Below are positions 3,263-63,671 of a DNA stretch of 64,000 nucleotides, piece after piece (the first letter of the stretch is position 1; each line of letters opens with the position of its first letter). Position numbers and translations under genes: made by a program. The notes under the pieces were generated by a model. It worked only from the letters and a program-made list of their open reading frames with translations. It ran no database searches and had not been told where the DNA came from. The stretch is from Kribbella rubisoli (GTDB taxonomy: Bacteria; Actinomycetota; Actinomycetes; Propionibacteriales; Kribbellaceae), in contig NZ_SHKR01000013.1 in assembly GCF_004217145.1 (NCBI RefSeq), positions 558,001-622,000 on the forward strand, given 5' to 3'.

Positions 3263-4576
3263 GTGGAAGTCATGGTTGCGACATACCTGAAGAGATGGGT
3301 CGGCAACCGCATTCTCAATAGGACCACCCGCAAGGGTGGTCTCGACCTGTCGAAAATGCGGATGTTCCCCAGCTCGGTCTCGATGCCGCTGCGCCGGCAG
3401 GGTCTCGACCCGGTGCCGGAGCTCGCGGAGGTGCGGGAGACCGAGCCGGTGCACAAGCTGGCCCACCTGTTCGGGCTCAACGTATGGGTGGTCAGCGGGC
3501 ATGCCGAGGCGAAGGCCGTGCTCGCCGACACGGCGAACTTCAGCAACGACATCCGGCCGCTGGTCGGCTCGGACCCGAACAAGCCGTCGGAGGGTATCGG
3601 CGGGCTCGGGTTCACCGATCCGCCGGACCACACGCGGCTGCGGAAGCTGCTCACCCCCGAGTTCACCAAGCGCAAGCTGGCCCGGCTCGAGCCGGCGATC
3701 GAGAAGATCGTCAACGACCAGCTGGACCTGATGGAGGCCAAGGGCCCGGTCGTCGACATCGTGTCGGACTTCGCCTTCAACGTGCCGTTCCTGCTGATCG
3801 CCGACCTGCTCGGCGTGGAGGAGCAGGACCGCGATCGCTTCCGCGCCCTCGGGCCGGCCCGCTTCGACCTGTCCGGTGGCGGGATCGGGGTGTTCGGGTC
3901 GGCTTCGGAGTCCCGGGACTTCCTGTTCGAGATCGTCCGTAAGCAGCGGACGAACCCGGGCGACGGGCTGATCGGGTCGATCATTCGCGAGCAGGGTGAC
4001 GACCTCGACGACGTCGAGCTCGGTGGGCTCGCGGACGGTGTGTTCCTGGGCGGGTACGAGACGTCCGCGAGCATGCTGGCGCTCGGCACGCTGGTGCTGC
4101 TGCGCGACCCGAAGAACTTCGAGCTGATCCGGAACGAGCCCGGCGCGGTCGACGGGATCGTCGAGGAGCTGCTGCGGTACTTGACGGTCGTCCAGGTCGC
4201 GTTCCCGCGGTTCGCACGACACGACCAGGAGCTGTTCGGCCAGCAGGTGAAGAAGGGCGACCTGGTCGCGGTGTCGCTGTCCGGCGCGGACCGCGACAAG
4301 CAGATCTTCGGCGCGGACGCCGAGGACTTCTACCCGCGCCGTACGGTCTCCGCCCCCCACCTCGCCTTCGGCCACGGCATGCACCGCTGTGTCGGGGCGG
4401 AGCTGGCGCGGATGGAACTGCGCGCGGCCTTCACCGCGCTCGCCCACCGCTTCCCGGACCTGTCCCTCGCCGTACCCGAAGAACAACTCCGCTTCCGCGA
4501 CTTCTCCATCGTGTACGGCGTCGAATCCCTCCCCGTCCAACTCCACGCGGCGTCTACCAACCAAGCCGCCGTCTGA
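3263..4576 (+). CDS. Cytochrome P450
   Basis: This 437-residue soluble haem monooxygenase is of the bacterial class, which needs separate ferredoxin and reductase partners. The I-helix motif GGYETSA carries the oxygen-activating (A/G)GX(D/E)T signature. The K-helix ExxR is in EELLR. The haem loop reads FGHGMHRCVG, with the thiolate Cys at residue 376. The conserved DPPDHTRLR segment lies in the N-terminal third. The length is usual for soluble bacterial P450s. The start could be GTG 3263, with agagaggg 4 bases upstream, or ATG 3272; neither choice affects the domains. No redox partner gene adjoins. The convergent gene is an F420-type oxidoreductase, which does not necessarily act with it. The substrate is unknown; steroids, terpenoids or polyketides are typical for the family. 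Confidence 0.95.
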   Translation: MEVMVATYLKRWVGNRILNRTTRKGGLDLSKMRMFPSSVSMPLRRQGLDPVPELAEVRETEPVHKLAHLFGLNVWVVSGHAEAKAVLADTANFSNDIRPLVGSDPNKPSEGIGGLGFTDPPDHTRLRKLLTPEFTKRKLARLEPAIEKIVNDQLDLMEAKGPVVDIVSDFAFNVPFLLIADLLGVEEQDRDRFRALGPARFDLSGGGIGVFGSASESRDFLFEIVRKQRTNPGDGLIGSIIREQGDDLDDVELGGLADGVFLGGYETSASMLALGTLVLLRDPKNFELIRNEPGAVDGIVEELLRYLTVVQVAFPRFARHDQELFGQQVKKGDLVAVSLSGADRDKQIFGADAEDFYPRRTVSAPHLAFGHGMHRCVGAELARMELRAAFTALAHRFPDLSLAVPEEQLRFRDFSIVYGVESLPVQLHAASTNQAAV

Positions 4577-4590
4577 AGCACACCGCTCCG

Positions 4591-4684
4591 CGGCCGCCGA
4601 GTCGTGGCGTATGGCGGGTACCCCGAAGCGCGAGTCGTGGATCGAGGTTGAATTCCCCAGCCATTTCCCACGACTCGACGGCCG
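4591..4684. terminator. Long inverted repeat between convergent P450 and LLM genes
   Basis: Arms at 4591-4607 (cggccgccgagtcgtgg) and 4668-4684 pair at 16 of 17 positions. A third copy of cgagtcgtgg at 4631-4640 can pair with the right arm in a shorter hairpin. The right arm ends one base before the LLM stop codon, so the structure probably acts as a bidirectional terminator. Confidence 0.6.
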
Positions 4685-57844: not shown

Positions 57845-58149
57845 TGACCGAGTCCATTGCGCTGCTGACGATCTTCGTCCTCGCGGCGTTCGTCGGGGTC
57901 GAGGTGATCAGCAAGGTCTCCTCGACGTTGCACACCCCGTTGATGTCCGGGGCGAACGCCATCCACGGCGTCATCCTGGTCGGCGCCATCATCGTCACCG
58001 GCTCGGCCGACTCCGTGATCGTGGTGATCGTCGGGCTGCTGGCCGTCGTACTCGCGACCGTGAACATGGTCGGCGGGTTCGTGGTCACCGACCGGATGCT
58101 GGAGATGTTCAAAGGTCCGGGGGCTCGTAAGAAGGAGCTGCACAAGTGA
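57844..58149 (+). CDS. pntAb: NAD(P) transhydrogenase subunit alpha, part 2 (membrane domain)
   Basis: This 101-residue membrane subunit supplies the first helices of the proton channel. It has about three hydrophobic helices, with the conserved TPLMSGANAIHGVI in the middle. ATG 57844 overlaps the pntAa stop by one base, and its end overlaps the pntB GTG in GTGA. The length is as expected for separate pntAb genes. Confidence 0.94.
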   Translation: MTESIALLTIFVLAAFVGVEVISKVSSTLHTPLMSGANAIHGVILVGAIIVTGSADSVIVVIVGLLAVVLATVNMVGGFVVTDRMLEMFKGPGARKKELHK

Positions 58150-59516
58150 TCCCCACCTGGGCCCAGATCGGCTATCTGGTCTCCGCGGTCTGCTTCATCG
58201 TCGCGCTGAAGGCACTCTCGTCGCCGCGGAGCGCTCGAACCGGCAACCTGATCGGTGCGGCCGGCGCGGTACTCGCGGTCCTCATCACGTTCGCGGCGTA
58301 CAAGCCGGACCACCTGGCGCCGATCCTGATCGCGCTGATCATCGGCACCATCGGCGGTGTGGTCGGGTCGCGGCGGGTGCAGATGACCCAGATGCCGCAG
58401 CTCGTTGCCTTGTTCAACGGTGTCGGCGGTGGCGCGGCGGCGTTGGTCGCACTGCTCGAGCTCGACGAGGTCTCGTCCGACGCGACGGTGGCGGCGATCG
58501 CTTCGGCGTTCACGATCCTGGTCGGAGCGGTGAGCTTCTCCGGATCGGTGGTGACGTTCACCAAGCTGCAGGAGCTGATGACGACCCGGCCGGTGACGTT
58601 CCCGGGTCTGCCGGTGCTGTTCGTCGCTTCGATCCTCGGCGGGCTGGCGCTGGGCGTCTGGCTGGTGTCGGACCCGCGCGTGTGGGTCGGCGTACTGCTC
58701 TGCCTCGTGGGGCTCGCTATCGGTGTGATGCTGGTGCTGCCGGTGGGCGGTGCCGACGTACCGATCGTCATCTCGTTGCTGAACGCATTCACCGGTCTGA
58801 CGGTGGCCGCGGGCGGTTACGTGCTGGGCAACACGCTGCTGCTGATCGCGGGCACGCTCGTCGGCGCCGCCGGTACGTTGCTGACCAAGCTGATGGCGGA
58901 CGCGATGGGGCGGTCCGTGTTCAACATCCTCTTCGGCGCGATCCGGGGCGGGTCGACGCTGGGCGCCGGAGTCGCGTCCGAGCGGCCGGTGATCTCGGGC
59001 GGGCCGGAGGACGTGGCGATCCTGCTCGGGTACGCGAACAAGGTCATCATCGTGCCCGGGTACGGTCTGGCGGTCGCCCAGGCGCAGCACGTCCTGCGTG
59101 ACCTGGTCGAGGAGCTGCAGTCGCGGGGCGTCAAGGTCGACTACGCGATCCACCCGGTCGCCGGTCGCATGCCCGGCCACATGAACGTGCTGCTCGCCGA
59201 GGCCCAGGTCCCGTACGACCAGCTCCGCGAGATGGACGACATCAACGGCGACTTCAAGACCACGGACGTCGTCCTGGTCGTCGGCGCCAACGACGTGGTC
59301 AACCCCGCGGCCCGCAACACCCCGTCGGCCCCCATCTACGGCATGCCGATCCTCAACGCCGACGAGGCCCAACGCGTCATCTTCCTCAAACGCTCGATGC
59401 GCCCCGGCTTCGCCGGCATCGAGAACGAACTCCTCTACGACCCCCGAACAACACTCCTGTTCGGTGACGCCCGGGACTCGTTGACAAAGCTCCTGGGCGC
59501 GCTCAAGACGGTCTGA
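58146..59516 (+). CDS. pntB: NAD(P) transhydrogenase subunit beta
   Basis: This 456-residue subunit has an N-terminal membrane part of about nine helices and a C-terminal NADP(H)-binding domain dIII. Conserved motifs are QMPQLVALFNGVGGGAAAL, PVGGADVPIVISLLNAFTG, IVPGYGLAVAQAQHVLRDL, YAIHPVAGRMPGHMNVLLAEA (over a loop) and LVVGANDVVNPAARN. With PntAa and PntAb it couples proton entry to NADP reduction. The following 319 bp have no clear gene apart from a dubious 15-codon reading frame. Confidence 0.95.
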   Translation: MIPTWAQIGYLVSAVCFIVALKALSSPRSARTGNLIGAAGAVLAVLITFAAYKPDHLAPILIALIIGTIGGVVGSRRVQMTQMPQLVALFNGVGGGAAALVALLELDEVSSDATVAAIASAFTILVGAVSFSGSVVTFTKLQELMTTRPVTFPGLPVLFVASILGGLALGVWLVSDPRVWVGVLLCLVGLAIGVMLVLPVGGADVPIVISLLNAFTGLTVAAGGYVLGNTLLLIAGTLVGAAGTLLTKLMADAMGRSVFNILFGAIRGGSTLGAGVASERPVISGGPEDVAILLGYANKVIIVPGYGLAVAQAQHVLRDLVEELQSRGVKVDYAIHPVAGRMPGHMNVLLAEAQVPYDQLREMDDINGDFKTTDVVLVVGANDVVNPAARNTPSAPIYGMPILNADEAQRVIFLKRSMRPGFAGIENELLYDPRTTLLFGDARDSLTKLLGALKTV

Positions 59517-59835: not shown

Positions 59836-59839
59836 CTAA
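59792..59839 (+). CDS. Possible 15-residue peptide gene (doubtful)
   Basis: GTG 59792 follows the strong ribosome site aaggag at about 59780-59785. The frame encodes MPSPHPPLSRSWDWG and ends at TAA 59837-59839, overlapping the end of the convergent regulator gene. The composition follows the local C-rich sequence, so the frame may be chance. The match to a ribosome site and its place beside a peptide-type locus are the only support. Confidence 0.15.
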   Translation: MPSPHPPLSRSWDWG

Positions 59840-60822
59840 TCCACCCACCCCCGCTGAGCCGCCCGAACCCCCAACTCAAACCGCCCCGAAGCCCCCACCT
59901 GCTCGCTCAGCTTGGCCGCAATCCGCCGCACAGTGCGCATCGACACACCCAGCTTCCGAGCCACCTGCTCGTCGGTTGCCTCGCGCACCAGGAGCCCAAG
60001 GAATTCAGCTTCCTGCGCGCTGACACCGCTTCCTCTCGCCGGTTGCTCGTCCTTGAAGGGGTCGATCGCGCGGTTCCAGAAGCTCAGGTAGAGCTCCTCT
60101 GCCATCCGTACGACGGCACGACTGTGGTGCACGACGGCGCCGACAGAGGTGTCGTCAGGGTCGATCCCCATTACCGCCGACGCGCCGTCGAAGATGGTCA
60201 ACCGGAATGGCACCGAGGGCGCCAGTCGCACCTTTCCCCCGAGACTGAAGACGAAATGTGCAAGTTCGCGCGCGCCTGACCTCTTCCAATAGGATTCTGG
60301 ATAGACGTATCGCATCTCTATGCCACGCTCGAGATGTTGTTTGTCGGGGAAATGCTCTGGGTCAAGAACTGTAGATGCGTCAGACTGAATTAGTCCCCAG
60401 ACAGATCTCGTTGGAGAAAACCGCTGCATTCGTTGGTTGGCGAGTTCGCGACCCTCGAGGATCTCGACGTCGCGCGTTGTTCTCTGCACCAAGGAATTCG
60501 CGAGATCCGCCGTGAATCTGTCGGCGGCGAGCTGGTCCGATCGCAGCTCCTTGCTCAGCGCCTCGATCTCCTGTTGCCGCCGCGCGGCGAGGCGTCCGAA
60601 GGTGAGCGACGGATCGAGCGGATACTCAACCCCTTCGATCCAGCTCGGCACGAGGAACCCGAGCTCGCGCAGCTTCTCCAGGTCGCGGGACGTCTCGTCC
60701 TCGCTCTGCCCCAGCTCGACGGCGAGATCGCTCAGTCGCGAGCCTCGTCCCAGTTCTGGCCGCTGCAGCAAGGTGCGGTAGACGGCGAGCAGATGCTCCG
60801 TGAGCCCTGCCGAGTCGAACAA
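59836..60822 (-). CDS. TrmB/LuxR-type transcriptional regulator (copy A)
   Basis: This 328-residue regulator has three parts. An N-terminal TrmB-like winged helix covers about residues 7-60 (VYRTLL to LRELGFLVPSW), followed by a coiled region (RRQQEIEALSKELR). A central PLD-like domain shows RGIEMRYVYPES and RLTIFDGASAVMGIDPDD. The C-terminal LuxR-type helix-turn-helix reads TDEQVARKLGVSMRTVRRIAAKL. Its start is TTG 60822, five bases after the stop of copy B, with no ribosome site, so translation may depend on reinitiation. Actinobacteria have many such regulators, often unlinked to known pathways. It may be the intact receptor for the small secreted peptide encoded upstream. Confidence 0.82.
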   Translation of the reverse strand: MFDSAGLTEHLLAVYRTLLQRPELGRGSRLSDLAVELGQSEDETSRDLEKLRELGFLVPSWIEGVEYPLDPSLTFGRLAARRQQEIEALSKELRSDQLAADRFTADLANSLVQRTTRDVEILEGRELANQRMQRFSPTRSVWGLIQSDASTVLDPEHFPDKQHLERGIEMRYVYPESYWKRSGARELAHFVFSLGGKVRLAPSVPFRLTIFDGASAVMGIDPDDTSVGAVVHHSRAVVRMAEELYLSFWNRAIDPFKDEQPARGSGVSAQEAEFLGLLVREATDEQVARKLGVSMRTVRRIAAKLSEQVGASGRFELGVRAAQRGWVD

Positions 60823-60827
60823 CGCCG

Positions 60828-61810
60828 TCAGACCCAGCCGCGCTTTGCGGCCGCTACGCCGAGTTCGAAGCGGCTGGCGGCGTCGAGGCGTTCGGAGAGG
60901 TTGGCGGTGATGCGGCGCGCGGTGCGGAGGGAGATGCCGAGGAGGCGGGCAACCTGCTCGTCCTTGGCGCCGCCGGCCAGGAGGCGCAGTACTTCGGCCT
61001 CGTGCGGGGTCAGCGGGGCGTCGTCGCGTTCGTCGGGATCGAACAGTTCGGTGGCTTGGTCCAATACGAGTCGAAAAGGGCCAGGGCTACGGCGATGACC
61101 GCCGGACTTCGGTGGATGACTGCGCCGGCTGTGGGGTTGTCCGGATCCATCGGCATGATTGCGATCTCCTGGTCGACAAGCAGGATCCGCATCGGCAGCG
61201 TCGGAGTTACTCGGACCTCGCATCCGAGCCGGTGGACGGCTGCGGCGTACTCCATCGCCTGCTTCGACGCTGTCATGCTCTGCAGGTAGACGGTTCGTAG
61301 CTTGATGCCACGATCAAGCAGCGGAAGGTCCGGTGACTCCTCCACTGACAGGGTCGTGTCATCGATGTGAGTCGGCACCAGGCCCCAGAACGTCTCCCGG
61401 GCCTTCAGAGCAAGCTCTTCGATGCGACGTGATGCATTCGCCCGGCCCTTCAGGACCTCGACGTCACCGCTGCTGCGTGCGGTCAGGAGTTCGTTGTACT
61501 GCTCTGCGACAACCTCTGCGGATGCCTCGGCCTCACGCAGCTCACCGAGCAGCCGGGTCAGCTCGCTACGACGGCGTTCGGCCAAACCGGTGAGTCCCAC
61601 CCGGGGATGGACCGCGTGCTCTCCTCCTGGGTTTGTCCACGTCGGTACGAGGAGGTCCAGTTTGCGTAGTCTGTCCATCAGCTCGAGCACGGCCTCAGCC
61701 GGCAGCTCTACTAGCGCGGCAATCTGCTCGGGCGTACTGTCTGGGTGGCTGAGAAGGGCGTGATAGACCGCAAAAGTGGCTTCGTCCACCCCCAGCGGCT
61801 CGAACACCAT
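60828..61810 (-). pseudogene. TrmB/LuxR-type regulator (copy B), frameshifted
   Basis: From ATG 61810 (ribosome site ggaggag) the frame encodes the N-terminal winged helix (ATFAVYHALL), coiled region and PLD-like domain (RGIKLRTVYLQS, RILLVDQEIAIMPMDPDN) up to ALALFDSYW. It then runs out of frame to a stop near 61010. One base out of frame the sequence continues as DQATELFDPDERDDAPLTPHE and a complete LuxR helix-turn-helix (DEQVARLLGISLRTARRI), with a stop at 60828. Adding one G to TATTGG-ACC at 61060 restores WDQATELF, which aligns with WNRAIDPF of copy A. A recent inactivating deletion or a sequence error explains this. Confidence 0.82.
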
Positions 61811-61827
61811 CTTCTCCTCCAGAACTT

Positions 61828-61839
61828 GTCGGAACCGAC
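61828..61839. promoter_or_regulatory. Palindrome GTCGGAACCGAC in the peptide/regulator promoter region
   Basis: This perfect dyad (5+5 with AA centre) overlaps the likely minus-strand -10 box TATGGT (61843-61838) and transcription start of the regulator gene. The shared 97-bp region (61811-61907) is AT-rich relative to its surroundings. It could be the regulators' own operator. Confidence 0.45.
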
Positions 61840-61907
61840 CATATACAGAGCGCGTCCATAAAGAGCACTCAATAGGCGGTTTCGGATTATTTCTGAAGGG
61901 ACGAGTT

Positions 61908-62027
61908 GTGATCAAGAAGTTGCTGGCTGTAGTCGGTCTGGGGATCGTGCTGGCCCTCGGGGCTTCGGTCCCGGCTAGCGCATCGACGGGTCAGGAGCCG
62001 GCCTGTCAGCCCCTCGTCTGCTGGTAG
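61908..62027 (+). CDS. Small secreted peptide, 39 residues, divergent from the regulators
   Basis: GTG 61908 follows ribosome site gaaggga at 61895-61901. The product begins MIKKLLAVVGLG and has a classical Sec signal with basic start, hydrophobic core and cleavage site VPASA|S. The predicted mature peptide STGQEPACQPLVCW has 14 residues, with Cys33 and Cys38 four residues apart and a C-terminal Trp39. A disulfide ring would give a small cyclic tail like secreted pheromones. It is too short for the usual gene-calling limits. Position suggests it is the signal read by the two divergent regulators, directly or through uptake or processing. No exporter or protease gene is adjacent. The alternative is a stray exported fragment, but the intact signal and ribosome site argue against that. 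Confidence 0.7.
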   Translation: MIKKLLAVVGLGIVLALGASVPASASTGQEPACQPLVCW

Positions 62028-62105: not shown

Positions 62106-62111
62106 GTGGGT

Positions 62112-63671
62112 GTGGCTCGTGGCGATGGTCGGCTTACTCATGAACTCGACCCGCAGGATCTGGGTCCGCAGGATGCTTGTGGGGTGTTCGGGGTTTGGGC
62201 GCCTGGTGAAGAGGTTGCCAAGCTCACCTACTTCGGGCTCTATGCCTTGCAGCACCGGGGGCAGGAGTCGGCGGGGATCGCGGTCAGTAACGGGTCGCAG
62301 ATTCTGGTCTACAAGGACATGGGGCTGGTCAGCCAGGCCTTCGACGAGGCGACCCTTGCAAGCTTGAGAGGGCACATCGCGATCGGCCACTGCCGGTACT
62401 CGACGACTGGTTCCAGTGTGTGGGCCAACGCGCAGCCGACGTTCCGGTCCACCGCGACCGGTTCGATTGCGCTCGGCCACAACGGCAACCTGACCAACAC
62501 CAGCGAGCTGGCCGCCAGCCTGAACGGCGAAGGTGACCTGGATCTCGGTCTCGACGCCGACGTCGACCACGCGAAGGCGAACGCCAAGCACGGTGCGTCG
62601 TCCGACACCGACATCCTCACCTCGATGCTGGCCGGCTACCCGGACCTGACGATCGAAGAGGCCGCCGCCAAGATCCTCCCGAAGGTCAAGGGCGCGTTCA
62701 GCCTGATCTTCATGGATGAGAACACGCTGTACGCCGCCCGCGACCCGCAGGGCATCCGCCCGCTGGTCCTCGGCCGGCTCGAGCGCGGCTGGGTGATCTC
62801 CAGCGAGACCGCCGCCCTCGACATCTGCGGTGCGAGCTTCATCCGCGAGGTCGAGCCGGGTGAGATCGTCGCGATCGACGCCGACGGTCTCCGCTCGACC
62901 AAGTTCGCCGAGCCGGACCCCAAGGGTTGTCTGTTCGAGTTCGTGTACTTGGCCCGTCCGGACACCCAGATCTCCGGCCAGCGGATCTACTCGACCCGCG
63001 TCGAGATCGGCCGCAAGCTCGCCAAGGAACACCCGGCCGAGGCCGACCTCGTCATCGCGACCCCCGAGTCCGGCACCCCGGGCGCGATCGGGTACGCCGA
63101 GGAGTCCGGCATCCCGTACGGGTCCGGCCTGGTCAAGAACGCGTACGTCGGCCGCACGTTCATCCAGCCGAGTCAGACGATCCGCCAGCTCGGCATCCGC
63201 CTGAAGCTGAACCCGCTGCGTGAGGTCATCGAAGGCAAGCGCCTCGTCGTCGTCGACGACACGATCGTCCGCGGCAACACCCAGCGCGCGGTCATCCGGA
63301 TGCTGCGCGAGGCCGGCGCCAAGGAGATCCACGTCCGCATCACGGCGCCGCCGGTGAAGTGGCCGTGCTTCTACGGCATCGACTTCGCCAGCCGGGCCGA
63401 GCTGATCGCCAACGGGCTGAACACCGAGGAGATCTGCCGTTCACTCGGCGCTGACTCGCTCGGGTACATCAGCCTCGACAACCTGGTCGAGGCGACGACG
63501 GTCCCGAAGGAGCGGCTCTGCCGCGCCTGCTTCGACGGCGTCTACCCGGTCGCCCTGCCCGACCCGGAGCACCTCGGCAAGCACCTGCTCGAGCTGCCGG
63601 TGACCGACGCCGACGGTCTGGCCACGGTTTCCGGCGGTGGCGGCGCCGCCGACGCCCTGAGCCGTCCGTGA
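62112..63671 (+). CDS. purF: Amidophosphoribosyltransferase
   Basis: This 519-residue enzyme makes phosphoribosylamine from PRPP and glutamine, the first step of purine synthesis. A propeptide of 22 residues precedes catalytic Cys23 in DACGVFGVW. The glutaminase Ntn domain shows YFGLYALQHRGQESAG and HCRYSTTG. The PRTase domain has the PRPP motif VVVDDTIVRGNTQ. Cysteines in KGCLFEF, WPCFYGI and CRAC match the iron-sulfur cluster type of the Bacillus enzyme. GTG 62112 is preferred because TAGACT lies six bases upstream; GTG 62106 is also in frame. purM follows after an 83-bp gap containing a hairpin. Confidence 0.97.
   Translation: MARGDGRLTHELDPQDLGPQDACGVFGVWAPGEEVAKLTYFGLYALQHRGQESAGIAVSNGSQILVYKDMGLVSQAFDEATLASLRGHIAIGHCRYSTTGSSVWANAQPTFRSTATGSIALGHNGNLTNTSELAASLNGEGDLDLGLDADVDHAKANAKHGASSDTDILTSMLAGYPDLTIEEAAAKILPKVKGAFSLIFMDENTLYAARDPQGIRPLVLGRLERGWVISSETAALDICGASFIREVEPGEIVAIDADGLRSTKFAEPDPKGCLFEFVYLARPDTQISGQRIYSTRVEIGRKLAKEHPAEADLVIATPESGTPGAIGYAEESGIPYGSGLVKNAYVGRTFIQPSQTIRQLGIRLKLNPLREVIEGKRLVVVDDTIVRGNTQRAVIRMLREAGAKEIHVRITAPPVKWPCFYGIDFASRAELIANGLNTEEICRSLGADSLGYISLDNLVEATTVPKERLCRACFDGVYPVALPDPEHLGKHLLELPVTDADGLATVSGGGGAADALSRP

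Follow-up and report, generated by a model that had tools for sequence, protein, structure and literature searches.

A small gene on the forward strand of Kribbella rubisoli contig NZ_SHKR01000013.1 encodes a 39-residue peptide precursor. It occupies 61908..62027 of the 64,000-nucleotide stretch that we analysed (contig positions 558,001 to 622,000, hereafter the window), and it lies divergent from a regulator gene, reg1 (60828..61810, reverse strand), which is followed by a tandem downstream copy, reg2 (59836..60822, reverse strand). Peptide and regulator probably represent, in Kribbella, a peptide-signalling family that is widespread among actinobacteria and in which a pheromone would be read by a cytoplasmic receptor. 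This reading is supported by the conserved and oriented pairing of the two genes, by a Trp motif common to the peptides, by tandem repeats of that motif and by the predicted fold of the regulator.

The small gene at 61908..62027 is a real gene. It starts with GTG. By eye, a ribosome-site-like stretch, GAAGGG, was recognised in the DNA, and in the product an n-region (MIKK), a hydrophobic core and a cleavage-like site of sequence ASA; the product ends in CQPLVCW. Using reg2 and the peptide as queries, we retrieved the locus from 38 Kribbella genomes, including that of the window (8.6 Mb). All 38 keep the gene order purF - peptide - reg1 and encode a Sec-type peptide of 38-50 residues, which starts 95-101 bp from reg1 in divergent orientation. 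The start codon is GTG in 37 genomes and ATG in one. Exactly two Cys are found past residue 10 of every peptide, in the pattern C-x(2-5)-C-W, with a spacing of x5 in 16 genomes, x4 in 14 and x2 in 8; the W is the last residue in 30 and is followed by one to five further residues in the other 8. The ratio of nonsynonymous to synonymous polymorphism (pN/pS) is 0.41 at the start (MIKK...) and 0.06 at the CW end, against 0.76-0.98 in the middle. Both ends are thus constrained, whereas the middle is nearer neutral and changes fast. Because the open reading frame (ORF), its start region and its CW end are retained in all 38 genomes, we judge it to be more than a chance ORF, and its product is probably a secreted precursor and the signal of the system. 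The initial annotation had been right about a GTG-started ORF with a ribosome-site-like stretch and a Sec-type signal, and about the 97 bp that separate it from the regulator start at 61810. It had also predicted a Cys-x4-Cys ending, of which the two Cys hold throughout the genus and the fixed spacing does not. Scans of 1, 5 and 6 peptides found neither a Pfam match nor an NCBIfam match close to its cut-off. One of the retrieved stretches, NZ_JAAGLV010000016.1 (L152), is titled Streptomyces sp. SID13031 but groups with the Kribbella set, and is probably misnamed.

Reg1 combines a TrmB-like winged helix-turn-helix (wHTH) and a PLD-like part, both within 61010-61810, with a LuxR helix-turn-helix (HTH) that is read in another frame (60828-61223). 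Reg2 is intact in the window and has the same architecture. The two tandem TrmB/PLD/LuxR regulators described initially are confirmed in their architecture, but the reading as two regulators has to be corrected: reg1 is split in the window by a frameshift near 61,050-61,057, which the initial annotation had missed, and reg2, which is optional in the genus, is intact in only 13 of the 38 genomes. In one further genome a contig end truncates it, and in all others it has decayed or is missing. Stops, frameshifts or pieces mark the decay of the tandem copy in L075, L087, L096, L100, L102 and L105, which suggests that it was lost repeatedly. Reg1 is a single open frame in all 37 other Kribbella genomes, and its frameshift in the window is either a mutation or an assembly error.

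Pfam scans of the window regulators detected TrmB/FilR1-like parts and the LuxR HTH, several matches being below curated cut-offs. Among 14 members of the regulator family, Pfam TrmB was found in 10 at E 0.01 (member 1 just under the gathering score) and the C-terminal, LuxR-type GerE HTH in 13. An hmmsearch comparison of TrmBL2 with the regulator, which is 327-328 residues long, gave E 1.4e-10 over columns 13-254. We modelled the intact K. kalugense regulator (mean predicted local distance difference test score 84.3, predicted template modelling score 0.53). The model consists of a wHTH (residues 1-66), a long helix (69-112), an alpha/beta, PLD-like domain (117-252) and an HTH (262-323). Its top Foldseek match is TrmBL2 (E 5e-14), while residues 114-258 match PLD-family nucleases (Z 16-17) and residues ~264-327 match LuxR HTHs (Z ~12). 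The catalytic motif HxKxxxxD was not found by eye in the regulator sequence, which makes a sensory role likelier than an enzymatic one for the PLD-like domain. None of the 19 Pfam matches that reg2 has up to E 1 is a tetratricopeptide repeat (TPR), nor is any of the 25 families shown out of 29 for the 14 members; bearing on the same question, the modelled chain is fully taken up by wHTH, helix, alpha/beta domain and HTH.

We opened ten loci of the same order outside Kribbella. At four of them a Sec-type peptide that ends in Trp lies divergent from the regulator; the other six have none. These peptides are PCIDCW and PCIGCW, in a genus taken to be Nocardioides, and NGFGW and GGFQW (twice), in another family of the order; the regulators next to them are 33-35% identical to reg1. 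A class-wide search with a regulator profile gave matches in 129 of 394 genomes at E 1e-40, and its loci yielded peptides such as GFDWG (three copies), VIGWD, DMGWQ, DLPWT and DPGWQ (two copies each). We then applied a strict rule, which accepts ORFs of 28-130 codons that are Sec-type by hydropathy and in which one of the last four residues is W or an xxW is repeated, to two sets of 40 loci hand-picked from the class-wide matches, mostly by score. Set 1 (stretches of up to 20 kb) mostly re-examines the discovery loci L188-L215, and set 2 is a mostly fresh test. In set 1, the three 250-bp bins nearest the regulator hold strict peptides at 2.0, 2.0 and 1.5 per 10 kb, going outwards, compared with 0.26 per 10 kb at distances above 3 kb. 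A strict Trp peptide lies upstream on the opposite strand within 1 kb of the regulator at 8 of the 40 loci of set 1 and at 13 of the 40 of set 2, against 0.52 expected in each case (p 9e-8 and p 2e-14, respectively). Over both sets, 21 of 29 near strict peptides have this orientation (p 1e-7). Class-wide, part of the homologous regulators thus have a nearby, mostly divergent Sec-type Trp precursor, and many have none.

Could such ORFs simply arise by chance in GC-rich DNA? A few strict matches do resemble membrane-protein or antisense ORFs: L253 and L231 in set 1, which satisfy the rule yet look like chance or membrane ORFs, and L274 and L286. The latter two are counted among the 13 divergent peptides of set 2, while L253 contributes one and L231 two of the remaining strict peptides counted; all four were left out of the motif set described below. 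However, near rates are about 6-25 times the background, the orientation is biased, several precursors carry tandem repeats, and ribosome-site-like stretches precede the Trp peptides (by eye). Conservation in 38 of 38 Kribbella genomes together with the enrichment in both sets refutes chance as a general explanation, to which we leave a practically negligible probability.

Outside Kribbella, the precursors end in or repeat a short Trp motif, for instance DLGWQ, DLPWT or DVTWG. We hand-picked 30 non-Kribbella pairs, consisting of near peptides of both sets and of plasmid and phage loci, and including L246 and L263, which fall outside the strict rule, and the downstream peptides of L221, L283 and L299. 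Their motif is roughly [GD]-D-[LFMIV]-[GTIP]-W-[GQDT]; position -3 is D in 17 pairs and position -1 is G in 15. Tandem units occur in precursors divergent from the regulator (GFDWG x3, DGFGW x3, DLPWT x2, DPGWQ x2 and, in L259, SWDWPK x2) and in precursors downstream of it (GTTWD x8 in L283, GAGWD x5 in L223 and x6, GNTWG x4 in L255), as expected of a multicopy propheromone. The highest copy numbers, those of GTTWD and GAGWD (L283, L223 and L302), are all downstream, the precursors of L223 and L302 lying 1.7-1.8 kb from the regulator. It is the Trp motif that the peptides of the set have in common. Cys pairs occur only in the Kribbella branch and close relatives and most other peptides lack them, so that the disulfide-closed pheromone of the initial annotation fails as a general idea. 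The mature form may also be shorter than the predicted STGQEPACQPLVCW, since related precursors repeat only a unit of 5-6 residues. With a disulfide, the window peptide has a calculated monoisotopic mass of 1515.65 as the 14-mer and of 845.36 as CQPLVCW. On the other hand, the small gene is conserved beside homologous regulators, a point on which that annotation had staked its proposal: none of the 38 Kribbella genomes lacks it, and Trp peptides are found next to part of the homologous regulators far outside the genus. This conservation supports the signalling role as an inference.

The pairing is also carried by mobile elements. A homologue of the regulator is present in 82 plasmid records, 79 of them named Streptomyces. 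Seven plasmids were opened by choice; five have a divergent peptide, one a downstream peptide (GAGWD x6) and one none. The five divergent pairs are those of S. clavuligerus pCLA1 (DLPWT x2), S. lavendulae BP39 plas2 (DDLGWQ) and three Streptomyces sp. NBC strains. Two queries against 50,697 phage records matched Streptomyces phage Chymera alone (two records, one phage). Its pair (KU958700.1, L307, positions 3322-4597, divergent) consists of gp29, a TrmB-PLD-LuxR-like regulator, and gp30, a Sec-type peptide that carries DPGWG twice, about 145 bp from gp29 and near an integrase and an immunity repressor. Both DPGWG copies are kept on three virus contigs whose gp29 is 100, 88 and 68% identical, and they survive in the 88% and 68% relatives while the spacer is altered. 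A search of IMG/VR with the regulator profile gave 19 candidates, none of which was confirmed.

We compared the peptides with their regulators. Similarity between motifs correlates with similarity between regulators over the 30 hand-picked pairs (Mantel r 0.38, p 0.0002) and over the 23 non-redundant ones (r 0.20, p 0.03). On a quick tree of 111 regulators, 43 of them labelled as having a peptide (a label that also counts peptides more than 1 kb away, as in L223, L245, L255 and L302), the label changes 24 times against 34.3 when shuffled, and none of 500 shuffles was as low. Sister regulators have the same motif (GAGWD/GAGWD, DLPWT/DLPWT, DVTWG/DVTWG).

These results bear on two other roles for the peptide. 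It might be an exported effector, antimicrobial, surface-acting or metal/thiol-active, whose production the regulator controls through another ligand, with no re-import. Divergent regulator-effector pairs are common, a Cys pair and a Trp could act outside the cell, and the many homologous regulators without a peptide mean that this family must often sense something else. Typical antimicrobials, though, do not resemble short, D/G-rich and sometimes repeated motifs (D at -3 in 17 of 30); the motif tracks regulator similarity, the phage copy sits in a lysogeny region, and no modification, immunity or transport gene was seen by eye between pntB and purF in the window. The immediate window neighbours of the precursor (regulators, pntB, purF) likewise include no enzyme that modifies ribosomally synthesized peptides. 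We consider an effector unlikely, but worth keeping in mind. Sensing of the peptide on the outside of the cell, or by another, membrane-bound receptor, with the regulator controlling only its production, is an improbable account given that the motif correlates with regulator sequence and that the same two-gene layout recurs, phage included. A peptide pheromone read by the PLD-like domain after import would be the most economical reading.

The intergenic region of the Kribbella loci contains a near-invariant element, GGAACCGACCATATACAG-N3-GCGTC (61831..61856, forward strand), aimed at the peptide gene and resembling an extracytoplasmic function (ECF) sigma promoter (GGAAC-N17-CGTC). The exact 18-mer GGAACCGACCATATACAG is found within the 95-101 bp gap in 35 of the 38 genomes, and GGAAC-N17/18-CGTC in 37, its 3' end 48-52 nt before the peptide start codon. 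Transcription of the Kribbella peptide gene seems to start from an ECF-type promoter. In the genome of the window the 18-mer occurs once, with up to three mismatches allowed. A mirror-symmetric divergent ECF promoter was considered and dropped, as the reverse motif is present in only 8 of the 38 genomes. Of 24 peptides from outside the genus, one is preceded by a relaxed form of the pattern, so the element seems to be a Kribbella trait.

The next gene 3' of the peptide was named purF by eye (62106..63671, forward strand). It follows the peptide by 5-90 bp in all 38 Kribbella genomes, and no terminator-like site separates the two in the window; co-transcription is therefore possible, and the peptide gene may be expressed together with purine synthesis. 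On the other side of the regulators, a pntB-like transhydrogenase subunit (58146..59516, forward strand; also named by eye) is present in most of the retrieved Kribbella stretches and serves as a synteny marker outside the system. The constant proximity to purF would suit a purF leader peptide acting by translation attenuation, next to which the regulator would lie incidentally. Neither purF nor pntB was detected at E 1e-20 in 83 regulator loci outside the genus, many of which hold Trp peptides, so the peptide tracks the regulator and not purF. The export signal is moreover conserved, and there is no Rfam match and no terminator-like site. We rejected the leader on the basis of the 83 loci and regard it as very improbable.

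Several results weigh against a pheromone read by the adjacent regulator. First, many regulators stand alone. At 32 of the 40 loci of set 1 and 27 of the 40 of set 2 there is no strict divergent peptide within 1 kb, and no strict peptide was found within 1.5 kb of 11 further paralogues in the window genome or of 10 paralogue loci in other Kribbella genomes. The tree holds a group of 21 rows without a peptide, including 7 of the 11 Kribbella paralogues placed in it, and rechecking of 27 regulators, mostly kin of peptide-bearing ones, gave one credible missed peptide (L236). Second, the peptide matches are imperfect. Two of the 13 divergent matches of set 2 (L274, L286) look spurious and one (L276) is the discovery locus L201; some Trp peptides are downstream or more than 1 kb off, one repeat peptide being 8.5 kb away; and Sec-type secretion was assigned by a rule of hydropathy and charge, not by SignalP. 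Third, the correlation between motif and regulator could be explained by shared descent alone. Finally, in the window itself the receptor gene beside the peptide is broken: with reg1 frameshifted or misassembled, the receptor in this strain would be the intact reg2, or none. No wider regulon was seen there either, the 18-mer having a single genomic site within three mismatches.

From the sequences we infer a scheme comprising export, processing, import, binding and output, with a possible quorum function. The precursor would be exported by Sec and trimmed outside the cell to a short Trp peptide. In Kribbella this would be the C-terminal Cys-x(2-5)-Cys-Trp piece, and elsewhere peptides of five to six residues, for example DLGWQ or GTTWD, would be released, sometimes from several tandem copies. 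An oligopeptide importer would bring the short peptide back into the cell, where it would bind to the PLD-like domain in the middle of the TrmB-PLD-LuxR regulator, and the bound regulator would alter the activity of the divergent promoter and perhaps transcription at other sites. More broadly, although we would stop just short of calling it probable, Actinomycetota may own a wide peptide language made of Sec-exported precursors, with 1-8 copies of a Trp-centred peptide of 5-7 residues, and cognate TrmB-PLD-LuxR cytoplasmic receptors, carried on chromosomes, linear plasmids and temperate phages. The Chymera-type pair would then be the equivalent of arbitrium, and BldK-imported and other developmental peptides of streptomycetes could belong to the same language. 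If the pairs described here work as proposed, they would supply many peptides and receptors of defined sequence that could be synthesised and assayed immediately, which would be useful for work on silent antibiotic clusters, on plasmids and on phage lysogeny. They would also establish a second, different fold for one-component receptors that respond to peptides.

The regulator is close in architecture to archaeal TrmBL2/TrmB, with which it shares a winged helix and a PLD-like core; it differs by the additional C-terminal LuxR HTH and by its pairing with secreted peptides, the known ligands of TrmB being sugars. No earlier description of the peptide-regulator pairing was found in the open-access PubMed Central literature, a scope that leaves out most subscription papers and bioRxiv. 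A 2016 review names butyrolactones and cyclic or modified peptides as actinobacterial signals (PMC4748050). In Streptomyces coelicolor, BldK is reported to import a developmental peptide of 655 Da, whose gene and receptor go unnamed in the excerpted text (PMC9640686). This signal resembles the one proposed here as a short actinobacterial peptide taken up by an oligopeptide importer.

The closest parallel in logic would be the RRNPP systems (Rap, Rgg, NprR, PlcR, PrgX, AimR), which likewise pair a small propeptide with an adjoining regulator of 250-500 residues and travel on plasmids and phages. A survey of these systems (PMC10075063) covers Firmicutes and viruses, describes actinomycetotal signals as typically small molecules made by enzymes, and lists as criteria a propeptide of 10-100 residues, export by Sec, a receptor of 250-500 residues, TPR repeats and adjacent genes. 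Three of these five computational criteria are found here, with a propeptide of 39 residues (38-50 in the genus), a receptor of 327-328 residues and genes 95-101 bp apart in 38 of 38 genomes; as to Sec, the peptides fit the hydropathy and charge rule. In contrast, the receptor is a TrmB-PLD-LuxR protein in which no TPR was detected, some precursors carry tandem Trp units, and the hosts are Actinomycetota. As no TPR was detected, the system is not classed as an RRNPP member; it would be RRNPP-like in its logic, with an unrelated receptor. The comparison extends to the arbitrium system of Bacillus phages (AimR-AimP), of which Chymera gp29/gp30 is a possible analogue: a secreted repeat peptide and a regulator lie near an integrase and an immunity repressor. 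The receptor type differs and the analogy is one of gene position only, but this layout makes an arbitrium-like role worth testing.

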